53,158 nucleotides of DNA from Solirhodobacter olei (GTDB lineage: Bacteria; Pseudomonadota; Alphaproteobacteria; Rhodobacterales; Rhodobacteraceae), in the NCBI RefSeq assembly GCF_004010155.1, contig NZ_RRYH01000035.1, positions 1 to 53,158 on the forward strand, given 5' to 3'. The notes beneath the pieces are model-generated. The model worked only from the letters and a program-made list of their open reading frames with translations, made no database searches and had not been told where the DNA came from. Positions 1,358-7,723 of this stretch are shown here, one piece after another (the stretch's first letter is position 1; each line of letters starts with the position of its first letter). The position numbers and the translations under genes were made by a program.

Positions 1358-4084
1358 ATGAGCGACATCGCACCATCCCGCTTTGCCATCTGCCACGGTA
1401 CTCACCGCGGCAAGGGCAAAAACGATCTGTGGACCGCCACCAAGCTCTGGACCAAGTTCCAGAAGCCGATGGTCGATACGTCGATCACGTGGGCCAAGTA
1501 CCTGAATCTGAACCCGTCCTCCCAGAAGGACCAGACCCTCAAGGCCGAACTGAAGGCCAAACCGGGCTGGTATAAGATGGGGCAGTATGAGGACGGTCGG
1601 CGGAAGCTCGGCCACCTCCTGGGCGTCTCCGCGATCTCGCTCGACCTGGACGATGTGCAGCCCGATCAGATCGAGCACATCCGCCTCGGCCTGGCCCCGA
1701 TCAATCGCTTCGTCTGGATCGGCCACACCACCCGGTCGCACACCCCCGAGAAGCCCCGCTGGCGCCTGATCGTCTTCCTCGACCGCATGGTCGATCTGGA
1801 CGAGGCCAACGCGCTCGCCCGCCTGCTCGCGACCCTGCTCGCCGACGACCCGCAAGAGGGCGTCGACATGTGCGACCAGGTGTCGTTCCGCAACAACCAG
1901 GCCATGTACTGGCCGTCGATCTCGGATGGTCAGCCCTACGAGACCGACCGGAACACCTCCGGTTCCATCGTTCGGGTGGACGAGTTCCTGGCCGAGCACC
2001 CAAACTGGCAGGACGTGACCACGCTGCCGCGGCAGGAGCACGAGAAGTCCGCCGCCGGCTCCGACCCGAACAAGCGGTTCGAAGACCCCCGCGACAAGCA
2101 GGGGATCATCGGCGCCTTCTGCCGGGCCTACGACATTGAGGCGGCCATCGCCGAGTTCATACCGGATGTCTATGTCCCGGGGGACTCGTCCGGCTCCGAC
2201 ATCCGCTACACCTATGCCCTGGGCTCGGCCGCCAATGGCGCCGTGGTCTACGACGACGGGCTGGTCATCTACTCGAACCACGGCACCGACCCGATCCAAG
2301 GCGGGGCGAACGCCTGGGACATGGTGCGGCTGCACAAGTTCGGCCACCTCGACGCCAAGGCGAAGGAAGACGACAGCCCGACCAAGCTCCCGTCGCACAA
2401 GGCGATGGTCGAGATGGCCTCGAAGGACAAGGCGGTCAAGCTCGAACTCATCGAGAACACCCGCGGGAAGTTCGAGGAGAGCTACGACGAGGACGACGAG
2501 TCGGAATCCGGCGATGATTTCGACACGTCGGGCGAAGATGACGATGCGACCGACACGTCCGACGCCCGCTTCGATGACGATGACGACGACTTCCTCGGTC
2601 TCGGGGAGACGGATGATGACGACTTCCTGGGTCTGAACGAGCCGGGCGAGAAGACCAAGCCCAAGAAGAAGCGCAAGTGGAAGGCCGACCTTCGTATGAA
2701 CATGGAGACCGGCACCCTCGCGAAGTCGGTCCACAACGCCGCGCTCATCCTCCAGAACGACCCCGCCTTCCGTGGGCGGGTGGCCTTCAACGAGTTCTCG
2801 AAGAAGATCGTCTGCACCCAGCCCATCGACCTCCCGGACCTCACGACACTGGCCCGTGGGCCGGTGACGGCCGACGACCTGAAGCTGCACGGCGGCCGGG
2901 AGTGGCTGGACACCGATGATAGCGACGTGCGAGCCGCGCTTGCCGCGCCGAACGATCTCGGCGGCTGGGAATTCGATGTCGCCCTTCTCGACGTGCGGAC
3001 GGCGGTCGATCTGGCCTCGCGGCAGAACTCGATCCACCCTCTCCGGGATCGCATCCGGTCGTTCCCCTGGGACGGCATGAGGCGGGCCGAGACGGTATTC
3101 ATCGACTACCTCGGCGTCGAGGATAACCCCTACCACCGCGAGACGTGTCGGCTCTGGCTCCTGGCCGCGGTAGTGCGCCTGTTCGAGCCCGGCCACAAAT
3201 GGGACTTCGTGCCGATCTTCGGCGGTGCGCAGGGGATCAGGAAATCGACGTTCGTGGATGTGATGTCGCTCGGCTACTCGGGCGCCCTGCATACGGACGT
3301 GAACAACCTGGGCCGCATGATCGAGTCGATGCTCGGCAAGTGGATAGTGGAGATCGGCGAACTGACGACGCTCTCCAAGGCCGACTCCGAGGAGGTGAAG
3401 CAGTTCATCACCGAGACCAAGGACACCTTCCGGCTGGCCTACCGGCACAACGCCGAGACCTTCAAGCGGACGTGCGTCTTCGGGGGCACGACCAACCAGG
3501 AGCAGTACCTCAAGGACGAGACCGGAAACCGCCGGTACTGGCCGATCCTCTGCAAGGTGCCGCAGATCGACACCGTGGCACTGGAGAAGGTCGTCCGGCA
3601 GATTTGGGCCGAGGTCTACACCTGGTATCTGGAGGCCCGCCGGGTCCAGCCGTTCGGCACGCTGCCGCTCTATCTGCGCGACGAGGAGTCGAAGCGGATC
3701 AGCGTGGCCCTCCAGGATGCCAGCCGCAAGGTATCGCCGGCCGAACTCATGGCCGAGAAGATCGAGGAGTGGCTGAACACGCCTCGGGACCTGTCCTCGA
3801 TCACCGAGGGCGGAGACGACCGTTTCGACCGGGAGAGCGCGGGTGAAGGCGTCATGATGCGCCGGGTTCGAGCGGCGATGAGCGAGGTCTGGCATATCGG
3901 CCTCGGGCAAGACCGGGAGATGAACCACTCCGACACGACCACGCTTGGCGCCGCGATGCGGATGGTTCCCGGCTGGACGCAGGCACGGCGCCGCTTGAGC
4001 ACTGGAGCCCGGACGACCATGATGACCCGCAACGGGTCCGATTGGGAAGCGGCCGAATGGGAGCCATTCGAGGCCGGAACCTGA
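1358..4084 (+). CDS. VapE-family phage/satellite primase-helicase
   Basis: A 908-residue protein of the virulence-associated E (VapE/DUF5906-like) type found in prophages, phage satellites and integrative plasmids. The N-terminal 330 residues resemble the primase-side region of such proteins. Residues about 373-430 form a very acidic linker with the repeat DDDDFLGL, followed by a basic patch (KPKKKRKWK). The C-terminal half is the P-loop ATPase: Walker A at 622-631 (GGAQGIRKST), then a Walker-B-like WIVEIGEL, then FGGTTNQEQYLKDETGNRRYWP, a hallmark of the family. Walker A has Arg628 where Gly is expected before the Lys. ATG 1358 is preferred over the upstream TTG at 1322 because the upstream residues look unrelated to the family. 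The gene ends at a terminator followed by an iteron-like array, suggesting a role in replicating the element. Confidence 0.85.
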   Translation: MSDIAPSRFAICHGTHRGKGKNDLWTATKLWTKFQKPMVDTSITWAKYLNLNPSSQKDQTLKAELKAKPGWYKMGQYEDGRRKLGHLLGVSAISLDLDDVQPDQIEHIRLGLAPINRFVWIGHTTRSHTPEKPRWRLIVFLDRMVDLDEANALARLLATLLADDPQEGVDMCDQVSFRNNQAMYWPSISDGQPYETDRNTSGSIVRVDEFLAEHPNWQDVTTLPRQEHEKSAAGSDPNKRFEDPRDKQGIIGAFCRAYDIEAAIAEFIPDVYVPGDSSGSDIRYTYALGSAANGAVVYDDGLVIYSNHGTDPIQGGANAWDMVRLHKFGHLDAKAKEDDSPTKLPSHKAMVEMASKDKAVKLELIENTRGKFEESYDEDDESESGDDFDTSGEDDDATDTSDARFDDDDDDFLGLGETDDDDFLGLNEPGEKTKPKKKRKWKADLRMNMETGTLAKSVHNAALILQNDPAFRGRVAFNEFSKKIVCTQPIDLPDLTTLARGPVTADDLKLHGGREWLDTDDSDVRAALAAPNDLGGWEFDVALLDVRTAVDLASRQNSIHPLRDRIRSFPWDGMRRAETVFIDYLGVEDNPYHRETCRLWLLAAVVRLFEPGHKWDFVPIFGGAQGIRKSTFVDVMSLGYSGALHTDVNNLGRMIESMLGKWIVEIGELTTLSKADSEEVKQFITETKDTFRLAYRHNAETFKRTCVFGGTTNQEQYLKDETGNRRYWPILCKVPQIDTVALEKVVRQIWAEVYTWYLEARRVQPFGTLPLYLRDEESKRISVALQDASRKVSPAELMAEKIEEWLNTPRDLSSITEGGDDRFDRESAGEGVMMRRVRAAMSEVWHIGLGQDREMNHSDTTTLGAAMRMVPGWTQARRRLSTGARTTMMTRNGSDWEAAEWEPFEAGT

Positions 4085-4114
4085 CTCGAATCTCGCATTT
4101 CAATATTTGGTAGA

Positions 4115-4140
4115 GCCGCCGAAAGGCGGCTTTTCCTTTT
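4115..4140 (+). terminator. Rho-independent terminator after the VapE gene
   Basis: GCCGCC (4115-4120), loop GAAA, GGCGGC (4125-4130), then TTTTCCTTTT. The hairpin starts 31 bp after the stop codon and is the clearest intrinsic terminator in the window. Confidence 0.85.
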
Positions 4141-4211
4141 CCACGTTTCGTAGACTACCGGGCCTCCGGGCGAACTCACCGGGCGCTGCGCGCCGAAATG
4201 CCCGAAATCCT

Positions 4212-4514
4212 GGCCAACCTACCCGCTGTGGCCAACCTAGGCCGGAGATAGGTTGCCCGGGGTAACGCATTGGAATCAAACACCGATTCCGGGCCTGGCC
4301 AACCTGGGCAACCTGTTCTCCTAATGTGAGACGGTTTTGGGGCCCTTGCGTGGATTCGCGGGTGTCTCACCGCGCCTTCGGCGGTGTTTTCCGTTTTCCC
4401 TCTAGCAACTCTATTAGAAACAGGTTGCCCAGGTTGACCAGGTTGGCCACAGCCTTAAAAATAAGGGCGAAATGCTGGCCAACCTATGCGCAAGGGGGTC
4501 TGCCCAGGTTGGCC
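4212..4514. repeat. iteron-like array: ten copies of the nonamer GG(C/G)CAACCT; candidate replication origin
   Basis: Forward copies start at 4212, 4230, 4297, 4306 and 4477. Reverse-strand copies start at 4250, 4422, 4431, 4440 and 4506. Nine fit GGCCAACCT or GGGCAACCT exactly; the copy at 4431 reads AGGTTGACC. Two copies abut head-to-tail at 4297-4314 and three at 4422-4448. Short AT-rich stretches lie near 4405-4420 and 4455-4465. Repeats of this size and number beside a primase-helicase gene resemble satellite or plasmid origins where the initiator binds iterons. Because orientation alternates, the array is not simply a coding repeat. Origin function is inference. Confidence 0.6.
4326..4370. 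repeat. 7-bp inverted repeat inside the iteron-like array
   Basis: GTGAGAC (4326-4332) and GTCTCAC (4364-4370) are exact reverse complements separated by 31 bp. They sit between the two clusters of nonamers. They could form a cruciform or bracket the central part of an origin. The function is unknown. Confidence 0.4.
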
Positions 4515-4933
4515 AGGGGCCTCGCTCGGTTCTCCACCAATCGTTGACACTGTGATCTTGAAAGCCTTGGGGCGCCAGCCGTGGGACCAACTCGACCGGC
4601 TGCACGGACGCCGGGACTTCGCTGGGGGTCACGCCGGGATTCCGCAGACCGCTCGCACGGAAACCCCAATGCCGACATGTGATATTATAACATAACGGAT
4701 GTGCTATAGAACAATCCCAGAACTCTCGAATATCGCGCTCCGCGCCCCCCGCGTGCAGGGTCAACTGGGCAGAAGGACCCGCAGCGGCAGATTGACAACC
4801 ATCTGCGGAAGACCTGCGTCAATTTCTCCGTGCGCCGAAACGTGAGGCTGTTCGACCGCGTAGTGCCGCGGAGTCGCGCCGAATGAATCGAGGTGCCATT
4901 GCAAGGCGCCGAGCCGGAAGAGCCAAGCCGGAA
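4515..4933. other. no recognisable gene between the iteron-like array and the IS66 remnant
   Basis: About 420 bp without a supported gene. Open frames on both strands are short and show no family resemblance. There is a small AT-rich patch at about 4680-4700. It is probably element backbone or decayed transposon DNA. Confidence 0.5.
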
Positions 4934-5261
4934 AAGCGCTCAAGAAGCATTCGCGCGGCTGCCTCGCCCATTGCGTGTCGCGGTTTAGAGATGGCAGATA
5001 ACCGCCCCGGAATGTCGGACGGCAGGGTCTGCCTTACGAACAATTGTGCCGAGAGATCACTGCGGGGGGCGCTCTCGGCAGAAAATCATGGCTCTTTGCC
5101 GGCTCAGAACGCGGGGGCCGCCGCGCAGCCTCCAGTATTCCCTGATCGGCTCGGCGAAGCTCAACGGCATCGTCCCGCAGGCCTGGCTTGCTCGTGTCAT
5201 CGCCCGCGTCTCGGATATGACGGTCTCACGCCTGCCCGAGCTACTGCCCTGGGCCTGGAAT
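4934..5261 (+). pseudogene. IS66-family transposase, C-terminal remnant with two frameshifts
   Basis: Pieces of the IS66 transposase C-terminus occur in order but in three frames. From 5018 the frame reads DGRVCLTNNCAERSLRG, containing the Glu of the DDE triad. From 5077 it reads GRKSWLFAGSERGGRRAA. The third frame gives YSLIGSAKLNG, PQAWLARVIARV and finally LPELLPWAWN ending at 5261. An intact protein would need at least two single-frame corrections, and the N-terminal two thirds are missing. A CTTAC near 5314-5318 may mark the old right end of the element. The remnant separates the VapE module from the D-peptide locus and suggests that insertion and decay shaped this boundary. Confidence 0.8.
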
Positions 5262-5454
5262 ACTGCCGTGTCACGTCAAGGCCGACTGACCGCGGTTCTC
5301 CGCGAAGGCCTACCTTACAGTTTCCGACAACCACCTGCGCGACTTCCGGGTCTTGATTGTCAGTGGACCTATTGGCTTTTCGACACAATGATCGGACCCG
5401 CTCGACCGCTCCAGCGCACTAAGCCGTGGCTCGTTGAAAACAAAGCTCTGTCAG

Positions 5455-6621
5455 TCAGGTGGAAGCGGATTGGGGTAAAGGAGCCTGGCTAGAGGTGCAT
5501 CTGGCGTCGACCGGCACCGCCGTGCATCGGCCTGAGGTTCGAACCATCACAAAACGGTCAGTCAGATTCATGACGGGGCAGGCATGATTTGGAATGATCC
5601 GTAGCTTTTCGCCAACGGCCAGCGGGCGCCCCTCACGGGCGATGAACCCGTGTTCCTCCGACAGCTGGGAGATGACGAAGGGCTGGTCCGACGGGTTGTT
5701 CAGGCGCACCGCTATGCCGAAACCCGGAATATTGTCGGAGCCGTGCGGCCCACGATCCGAGCTGAGCACCTTCGATCCGGCGTCGATGATCGCGTACTGC
5801 TGGTTCGAGCTGACCACGCTCGCCAGGACGGTTAGCGCGACATCTTCTGGCCGGGCAGCTCCGAGCGAAATCTGCATCCGATCCAAGAACACGTAATTGC
5901 CGGGTCGGATCTCCGTGATGCCGTCCAAACCATCGTTCAGCAGAACCGTAGGTGTGCTGCCGACCGAGACTTCGGGCACCTCCAGCTTGGCAGCTTCGAG
6001 CCGCGCCCGCATGTCGGCCATGGTCGCGCATTCTTCACGGGCAATCCGTCGTACTGCATCGGCGCTGCCCGAAGCATAGGCGTGGCCCGCGTGGCTCAAT
6101 ATCCCGGCAAAGGCGAGGTAAGGGGCCCTGGCGATGGCAAGGGCCAGGCTGACCGCATCTCGGGAGTATGGATCGACCCCACAGCGGTGCAGGCCGACAT
6201 CGATTTTGAGTTGCACCTCCGTGTGCTGACCGAGCGCGTGGCTGGCGTCGGCGGCGACTGCCACAGTCTCGGGGCTGTCCGCGATCAGTCGTAGCGCGGT
6301 ACCGTGACGTGCGGCCGCGGCGAGGACTTCACGTACCACCTGCGGATGGAACAGCGGGTACGCTAGGGTGATCGCCGTAAAGCCTGCCTCGATAAACACC
6401 ATGGCTTCGGCCGGTTTCGACGCAGTGATCCCGCTCGCGCCCAGTGCTATCTGCGCGCGCGCGAGCCGGATCGACTTGTGGGTCTTGATGTGCGGGCGCA
6501 GTGCCACGCCGCTGCTACGGGCCAAGTCGGCCATGCGGTCGATGTTGGCCAGCATACGGTCTTCGTCGACGCAAACGCAGGGTGTCAGCAGGTCATTGAG
6601 GGAGTCGCAGACACCCAGCAT
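5455..6621 (-). CDS. D-threonine aldolase / D-serine dehydratase-like PLP enzyme
   Basis: A 388-residue fold-type III PLP enzyme with an alanine-racemase-like N-terminal barrel. RPHIKTHKS places the PLP-binding Lys at 46, and PNHACPVMNL near the C-terminus supplies the His346/Cys348 metal site of D-serine dehydratases and D-threonine aldolases. Family members cleave D-beta-hydroxy amino acids to glycine plus aldehyde or deaminate D-serine; the exact reaction cannot be read from sequence. The protein is cytoplasmic, with no signal peptide. It is divergent from a D-aminopeptidase gene and next to a peptide importer, consistent with use of D-amino acids released from peptides. The length is normal for the family. 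Confidence 0.85.
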   Translation of the reverse strand: MLGVCDSLNDLLTPCVCVDEDRMLANIDRMADLARSSGVALRPHIKTHKSIRLARAQIALGASGITASKPAEAMVFIEAGFTAITLAYPLFHPQVVREVLAAAARHGTALRLIADSPETVAVAADASHALGQHTEVQLKIDVGLHRCGVDPYSRDAVSLALAIARAPYLAFAGILSHAGHAYASGSADAVRRIAREECATMADMRARLEAAKLEVPEVSVGSTPTVLLNDGLDGITEIRPGNYVFLDRMQISLGAARPEDVALTVLASVVSSNQQYAIIDAGSKVLSSDRGPHGSDNIPGFGIAVRLNNPSDQPFVISQLSEEHGFIAREGRPLAVGEKLRIIPNHACPVMNLTDRFVMVRTSGRCTAVPVDARCTSSQAPLPQSAST

Positions 6622-6922: not shown

Positions 6923-7723
6923 ATGAAAGTTTTTCTGAGCGCCGACATCGAGGGCACGGCCGGAATCGTGCATTGGGACGAAGCCACCCGAACCCATTCC
7001 GACTATGCCGAATTCCACGCGCTAATGACCGGTGAGGTCGTCGCGGCCTGCGAGGGTGCCCGCGCGGCAGGGGCTGACGAGATCGTTATCAAAGATGCCC
7101 ATTCGAGTGCACGGAATCTTATCCTAGACAGGCTACCGGATTATGCCCGCATCATCCGCGGCTGGTCGGGCCACCCCGATCTGATGATGTACGGGCTTGA
7201 TCCGGATTTCGCGGCCGCGATCTACACCGGCTACCACGCCAAGGCAGGCAGCGATGCCAATCCGCTGGCCCATACGCTCACCGGGCGCATCAATCGGCTC
7301 CTTCTGAATGGCGAGATGGCCTCAGAACTTACGCTCAACGCGCTCTGCGCTGCTGGTTACGGCGTGCCCTCGGCGTTCCTGTCGGGCGATGCCGGCATCT
7401 GTGCCGACGCGGAGGCGATGCTGCCCGGGATTGTGACCGTCGCAACGCTGGAAGGTGCCGGCTATGGCGCCTCTTCGCACTCTCCCGAGCGTGCGCGGGC
7501 GATGATCCGGGAGGGCGTGGAACGAGCCCTATCGAAGGACATGGCCGGCCAAATCCCAACGATTGCCGACCGCTTCGAGATGATCATCGAGTTCAATAAC
7601 CCATCAGACGCCTACAAGGCGTCTTGGTATCCTGGCGCGAAGGCCCACGGGCCCTGCGCCGTGGCCTTCGAGACAACCGACTTCTTTGAGATCCAACGCG
7701 CCCTGAGGTTCATTTGCCTTTGA
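6923..7723 (+). CDS. M55-family D-aminopeptidase (DppA-like), copy 1
   Basis: A 266-residue protein of the DppA family, zinc D-aminopeptidases that release N-terminal D-amino acids such as D-Ala from short peptides. Visible signature: SADIEGTAGI with Asp8 and Glu10, KDAH with His60, TGYHA with His105, AHTLTG with His117, and a Glu in the following NGEMASE. These match the metal and catalytic positions of the family, and the length is usual (about 270). There is no signal peptide, so it acts in the cytoplasm on imported peptides. It shares the family with the gene at 14817 but is clearly divergent from it, suggesting different peptide preference. It precedes the peptide importer genes by about 380 bp. 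Confidence 0.9.
   Translation: MKVFLSADIEGTAGIVHWDEATRTHSDYAEFHALMTGEVVAACEGARAAGADEIVIKDAHSSARNLILDRLPDYARIIRGWSGHPDLMMYGLDPDFAAAIYTGYHAKAGSDANPLAHTLTGRINRLLLNGEMASELTLNALCAAGYGVPSAFLSGDAGICADAEAMLPGIVTVATLEGAGYGASSHSPERARAMIREGVERALSKDMAGQIPTIADRFEMIIEFNNPSDAYKASWYPGAKAHGPCAVAFETTDFFEIQRALRFICL

Follow-up and report, generated by a model that had tools for sequence, protein, structure and literature searches.

A VapE gene and the repeats beyond its 3' end

The stretch of DNA analysed here (the window) is one whole contig of 53,158 bp, C53, from a 4.78-Mb genome assembled in 122 contigs. Near its left end lies a gene for a 236-aa protein (136–846) that had no match in Pfam, PHROG or NCBIfam, followed by a small plus-strand gene (940–1194) for an excisionase/AlpA-like protein, which matched HTH_17 at an E-value of 1.7e-4, under the Pfam cut-off, and phrog_66 (excisionase and transcriptional regulator) at 8.7e-5. 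Downstream of these, vapE (1358–4084, plus strand; ATG at 1358, alternative TTG at 1322) encodes a VapE-type primase-helicase of 908 aa in an intact reading frame. Its match to PF05272 (E = 3.8e-68, 229.6 bits, the cut-off being 25) places the protein in this family, and it also matched phrog_256 (E = 3.3e-202).

The AlphaFold2 model of VapE (mean pLDDT 84.5) comprises an N-terminal primase, an acidic linker of low confidence (residues ~378–437), an SF3-like AAA+ helicase (~560–765) and a C-terminal winged-helix-like domain (~790–892) built from helices and two strands. The top Foldseek match was 7pds, PriRep1 with dsDNA (E = 8.4e-33, TM-score by target 0.74), so that VapE has the fold of the PriRep1 helicase; a family profile (A6) also matched 7pds through the C-terminus (E = 6.5e-129). 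This protein, which we take to be from SaPI1 and whose entry is annotated 'Similar to D. nodosus vapE', is the nearest solved relative of VapE by both fold and sequence. The Walker A motif (3218–3250, residues 621–631) reads GAQGIRKS, with Arg at the usual Gly position. Among 79 VapE clusters with a recognisable motif, that position held Gly in 59, Arg in 8 and another residue (Tyr, Phe, Asn, Lys, Cys or Asp) in 12, and seven loci had no motif match.

Beyond the stop codon at 4084 a terminator-like hairpin with a 9-bp stem (4112–4133, plus strand) precedes a T-rich stretch, and the surrounding segment (4085–4145) folds at -20.3 kcal/mol (z = -3.7, equalled by none of 200 shuffles). An array of short repeats (4212–4514) begins 127 bp past the stop, directly 3' of the gene, and the original prediction had correctly placed it beyond the terminator of the primase-helicase gene. 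Further right, a C-terminal remnant of an IS66 transposase (~5017–5296) separates the element from host genes, which from 5455 onwards encode a D-serine-dehydratase-like protein, an M55 aminopeptidase and an ABC-transporter substrate-binding protein.

The repeats form two convergent sets around a spacer

Nine exact copies of GGSCAACCT were present in the window and all fell within 4212–4514, against an expectation from shuffling of 0.60 (sd 0.79, largest 3); none of 100 shuffles reached at least nine. The array had been described as ten copies of GG(C/G)CAACCT, which holds for nine of them, the tenth (4431–4439) being GGTCAACCT and outside the GG(C/G) pattern. On a separate array score the segment 4200–4520 reached 8.4, which none of 300 shuffles equalled (maximum 4.6). 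Of 264 tiles across the window, the top one began at 4201 and likewise scored 8.4.

Counting the ten copies of GGNCAACCT by orientation, we found the order ++-++ [107 bp] ---+-. On the left, three outer iterons (4212–4258; + 4212, + 4230, - 4250) are followed by an inner tandem pair on the plus strand (4297–4314; + 4297, + 4306). On the right, an inner tandem triplet on the minus strand (4422–4448; - 4422, - 4431, - 4440), made up of GGGCAACCT, GGTCAACCT and GGCCAACCT, is followed by a CCTTAAAAATAAGGGC box (4454–4469), a pattern picked post hoc, and by two outer iterons (4477–4514; + 4477, - 4506). The mapped order confirms the predicted tandem runs of two and three. Both inner sets repeat every 9 bp and face each other across the spacer (4315–4421), which we propose as the melting region. 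Its GC content of 54.2% is modestly below the 62.4% of the window, and the poorest 30 bp, at 4387, have 36.7%; as in PICI-type origins, two iteron sets flank a lower-GC stretch, here with modest AT-richness. The spacer also contains a second hairpin (CACCGC...GCGGTG) followed by a T-rich stretch, and a pair GTGAGAC/GTCTCAC. Its overall folding was that of shuffled sequence (z = -0.39).

Over the whole genome (4,778,327 bases in 122 contigs) GGNCAACCT occurred 183 times (82+101) and the reversed pattern 30+39 times. Same-orientation copies at most 30 bp apart were found only at the array (4 matches; 0 for the reversed-pattern control). The word is therefore not peculiar to the array, single copies being scattered through the genome, but its close same-orientation pairing is. 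Among 394 family genomes, our own counted, 20 had a close GGCCAACCT-GGNCAACCT pair, and at the 14 such loci inspected outside the window we found neither a VapE gene nor an array.

Arrays are frequent 3' of VapE genes

We assembled 103 VapE loci, including the window: 18 from 147 family genomes (17 in other genomes and one more in our own), two from single-protein scans, two Ruegeria phages and the best 80 of 317 IMG/VR matches. These formed 86 clusters at 90% identity, 83 of them with sufficient 3' DNA. A fixed test scored the best 8-mer, with at most one mismatch and in both orientations, in a tile from 40 bp before to 360 bp after the stop codon, the threshold being the 99th percentile of control tiles. 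It was passed by 48 of the 83 non-redundant loci (the IMG/VR part being the best 80 of 317). Upstream tiles never exceeded the threshold (0 of 79), and few did so among the adjoining 3' tiles (3 of 80), the remaining tiles (18 of 1796) and the shuffles (3 of 1660; Mann–Whitney p = 4e-32). The repeat word usually changed from one locus to another.

The 35 loci that failed include the window itself, which scored 5.4 where 5.81 was needed, its array being cut by the tile. Others, such as L007 and L065, also have arrays that are cut by the tile or lie farther 3'; in some no array was visible. The array is 1.8 kb away in L030, 4.2 kb away in L033 and upstream of the gene in L031. Six of the 18 genome-derived loci passed (L034–L038 and L040). 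The original prediction counted the lack of an array beside close VapE homologues as a refutation; our searches found no VapE above ~45% identity to that of the window, and more distant homologues do carry arrays, mostly of other words. A class-wide search with PF05272 gave a match in 18 of 385 genomes, of which our own, with its two loci, entered the comparison.

Among 15 additional phage and satellite records from several phyla, 12 scored higher than their own shuffles as well as the control tiles and 9 scored at least 7, the score being the best of four tiles and so slightly favouring the observed value; the other three, Montesquieu, BT2 and BcepNY3, showed no clear array. Five phages (phiFL4A, Dina, Bob, PMP-GADVASU-IND and phiPaco) have the array in mid-genome, with vapE on one side and VRR-nuclease and helicase genes on the other.

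Two loci carry other repeats at a distance from the gene. In L039, ~1.8–2.2 kb 3' of vapE, various 8-mers occur seven times over ~375 bp, mostly in one orientation, possibly as a CRISPR-like tandem array. In L005, ~1.5–1.9 kb 3' of vapE, CATGGGAC (GTCCCATG) occurs seven times in 351 bp, separate from the ACAACTGA repeats closer to the gene.

One layout is written in many repeat words

Oriented towards the spacer, the words at individual loci include TGTAACCA, TGTCAACA, TGGAACAC, TGTGAACC, TGCACCACCT, GGGTCCGGGT and GGCCAACCT. Across the VapE loci compared, the repeat word varies and the layout is constant. A clean core, consisting of a tandem pair, a spacer and an inverted tandem pair, was recognised in 24 clusters, with a median spacer of 100 bp whose GC content was below that of its locus in all 24 (mean -17 points), and the window fits this geometry. 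The same held for 43 of 43 loci in a larger set, in which the most AT-rich gap was taken if several fitted, a choice that favours low spacer GC and was not made for the 24 clusters.

The words share a degenerate consensus of about TG[TG]NAAC[CA]. Their information content was 3.33 bits for the 24 loci, against maxima of 2.04 for column shuffles and 3.26 for random flips (60 runs each), and 3.50 bits for the 43 loci, against 1.50 and 3.39 (40 runs each). So narrow a lead over random flips makes any claim about a common orientation weak. We also asked which part of VapE might predict the word. In 57 loci (1527 pairs) no domain stood out. Separate nearest-neighbour tests of domain similarity against repeat word gave p values of 0.40, 0.27 and 0.11, and an orientation-aware version with 43 loci gave 0.68, 0.99 and 0.18. 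The suggestion that the C-terminal domain would set specificity therefore draws on the V18/V16 phage pair described below, the structural model and the SaPI literature. Locus L064 has a V16-like C-terminus and, at first look, a V18-like word; the left copies taken from its largest AT-rich gap are TGTTCCATT, near the TGTCCGATT of V16, as judged by eye, the program having picked another gap.

The box CCTTAAAAATAAGGGC of the window resembles CCTTATAAATAAGGGG of V16 and CCATATAAATAAGGGG of V18 and L064, and all are placed alike beside the right inner iterons. Boxes of CCATATAAATAAGGGG adjoin the right inner iterons 3' of vapE in L007 and L064, twice in the latter. The pattern TA[AT]AAATAAGG, picked after viewing the sequences, occurred 6 times in 95 kb of 3' DNA and 3 times in 941 kb elsewhere, the six including two in redundant V16 copies and two in L064.

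The array most like that of the window came from a scan of a virus collection for three tandem copies of its word, which returned seven stretches. Six had no VapE gene and by their position look like coding repeats. The seventh, L174, carries a gene of the VapE family that is truncated at the edge of the contig (PF05272, E = 2.8e-61), and 3' of it ten exact copies of GGCCAACCT in the order ++-+++ [82 bp] --+-; a degenerate third right-hand copy can be seen in the sequence. The arrangement of outer and inner copies almost matches that of the window (++-+++|--+- against ++-++|---+-). The two VapE proteins are 43% identical over 141 helicase residues, and BLASTP reported no similarity between their C-termini despite the common word. 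The L174 spacer, at 63% GC against 67%, is hardly AT-rich. Since a gene for a terminase large subunit lies farther along the contig, L174 is probably a phage.

Helicase half and array were exchanged together between two phages

The best evidence that the helicase half and the array belong together comes from a comparison of two Ruegeria phages, V18 and V16. Residues 1–360 of their VapE proteins are 98% identical (353/360). Similarity at the DNA level stops near codon 448, after which the helicase halves are unlike and the arrays are written in different words, GGAACAC in V18 and ATCGGAC/GTCCGG in V16. It resumes within ~10 bp of the end of the array (at 7611 of the V18 locus, the final repeat stopping near 7602) and continues over 106 bp with 95% identity, beyond which the genome ends differ again. 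V11 and DSS3-P1 are like V18 (99.99% over 7743 bp). On this alignment, V18 and V16 have swapped the helicase half together with the array, as a single block. The genome announcement records that V16 differs at its genome end, and a word search of its text gave no occurrence of origin, repeat or helicase (PMC6256702).

The surrounding element

Bases 1–41 of the window are of interest for the left border: 37–39 of them are identical at contigs C55, C42, C88 and C46, where the continuations differ. These four shared-sequence loci stop at those 37–39 bases, which marks them as contig ends, and the shared bases are likely to be a terminal repeat belonging to a multi-copy insertion sequence. No integrase gene was found on C53, all 13 integrase matches of the genome being on other contigs. 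We found no tRNA gene in the window, and no PICI hallmark genes or att site on the contig. A search within the genus gave no empty site, the right flank yielding short weak matches only (7 genomes), and among the plasmid matches listed (15 of 386) only the IS66 stretch matched. Given the contig start in a repeat, the IS66 remnant and the lack of an integrase on C53, the element may be decayed; its left part may also lie on another contig. The original prediction had favoured a satellite. This label stays conjectural, in view of these same features and of the likest array, that of L174, being on a terminase-bearing contig.

The second VapE gene of the same genome (L047; G000:C47:37000-47000) lies in a row consisting of an integrase with an arm-binding domain, a PLD-like gene, HTH_17, VapE and then an array, a gene order that matches that of the window. 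This array is sparse and weak, with GTAGGGCT in both orientations, and its score of 5.2 in the fixed test was no strong pass on either threshold.

The array as a probable replication origin

The comparisons across loci support the proposal that the array is a replication origin well: 48 of 83 VapE loci have a 3' array, and the layout is like that of the SaPI and PICI origins described in PMC6092414 and PMC7581432. In this respect the original prediction was well supported by comparison. Our main reading, to which we give a probability of roughly 0.85, is that a VapE-type replicon has its iteron origin in this array of 303 bp, which VapE would bind, which would melt in its spacer and which would be primed by the primase. 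The C-terminal winged-helix domain would bind the GGSCAACCT repeats, with one helicase ring seated on each of the convergent inner sets (4297–4314 and 4422–4448); the 107-bp spacer between them would then melt, and the fused primase of VapE would supply primers. Binding, melting, the two rings, priming and continued replication of the element are all proposed by analogy.

Several other readings were weighed against this one. The array could be an attachment-site region, with arm-type sites for an integrase or sites for the HTH_17 protein at the right end of the element. Integrase arm sites may consist of short repeats that face both ways, no recognisable feature of the element lies farther right than the array, and an excisionase-like gene is found upstream of it. 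However, in the five phages named above the array sits mid-genome rather than at an integration module, in the second element of our own genome it follows vapE rather than the integrase, and the window has no tRNA gene. In the Ruegeria phages, too, the integration module is situated elsewhere (PMC6256702). We consider an attachment region improbable. Slightly less probable still is an array of regulatory operators, serving autoregulation by VapE or the HTH_17 protein or forming part of a terminator region. Some initiators do double as repressors of their own genes, and a terminator-like hairpin adjoins the array, but the array lies 3' of the gene to be regulated, none of 79 loci exceeded the threshold in the 400-bp stretch preceding vapE, and convergent sets around a low-GC spacer suit melting rather than repression. 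Almost no weight is left for a chance, coding or general intergenic repeat. The genome does contain many single copies of GGNCAACCT (183), and isolated direct pairs are found elsewhere in the family (20 of 394 genomes, our own included); against this, none of the 100 and 300 shuffles matched the array, the 14 family pair loci had neither VapE nor array, and an Rfam scan of 3900–5500 gave two sub-threshold matches, both outside the array.

A different question is whether the origin is vestigial, with gene and array persisting in an element that has lost its integrase and neither excises nor replicates. The contig starts within a sequence that is repeated at other contig ends, the IS66 remnant lies at ~5017–5296 and the contig has no integrase match, all of which would fit such a relic. 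Yet the 908-aa VapE frame is free of stops, the ten repeats are intact and in canonical layout, and the absent left part may simply be on another contig. We regard decay of this kind as a real prospect, at somewhat less than even odds.

Relation to known replication origins

In the pathogenicity islands of Staphylococcus aureus (SaPIs), the C-terminal domain of Rep sits on iterons directly 3' of its own gene, apparently as two hexamers (PMC7581432), and the origins of PICIs, known from E. coli and other bacteria, consist of two iteron sets around an AT-rich region, a pri-rep-ori segment being able to support plasmid replication (PMC6092414). The window resembles these systems in having an initiator helicase of the VapE or a related family with a C-terminal DNA-binding domain, here a predicted one, and an origin directly 3' of the gene with short iterons, two sets and a lower-GC middle. 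It differs from them in that the element is alphaproteobacterial, the word is GGSCAACCT, the primase is fused to the helicase, and a terminator and 127 bp separate gene and array; unlike a PICI, its contig has no hallmark genes, integrase or att site. The original prediction held that this was an origin of a kind not known to be described. That claim fails because the SaPI/PICI Rep–ori system is already of the same kind, and the window is a further case of it in an alphaproteobacterial element.

The alpha protein of phage P4 is likewise an initiator in which primase and helicase are fused; it binds DNA through its C-terminus, and its short repeats face both ways. It bears another family label, and the P4 repeats lie in two separate regions, ori and crr. 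On this description, P4 alpha/ori/crr would be like the window in its fused initiator and its short repeats in two orientations. P4 is mentioned in passing in PMC6092414. The SCCmec helicase Cch2 has a C-terminal domain that on its own binds repeats lying downstream of the operon, but Cch2 belongs to another helicase family (Primase_Cterm/D5-like) and its putative origin has three 5-bp AAGTG iterons (PMC7581432). The crenarchaeal plasmid pRN1 has a primase-helicase gene, a terminator and then a ~100-nt element needed for replication, although this system is archaeal and a stem-loop takes the place of the iteron array (PMC4234260).

What looks new is the spread of the Rep–ori kind in phages: a search of open-licence papers found none that describes phage VapE genes as generally accompanied by such an origin. 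IMG/VR virus contigs (best 80 of 317) and named tailed phages show the same layout next to their VapE genes, so that PICIs may either have inherited a phage origin or donated one. Taking the results together, we see about an even chance that the helicase half of VapE and the 3' array constitute a self-contained plug-in replicon cassette of tailed phages, satellites and integrative elements from different bacterial phyla, with one geometry, one degenerate ancestral word and fast-changing specificity. If this is true, each lineage would read its own origin only, hence the swaps of whole modules as between V18 and V16, and a layout that is termed unique to PICIs in PMC6092414 would be a general phage origin type. 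The census also makes VapE, which still carries a name from virulence, a predictor of origins, the repeat word being readable from the DNA 3' of the gene. Fast-diverging pairs of initiator and iterons, together with the natural swaps, offer a route to how an initiator changes its target.
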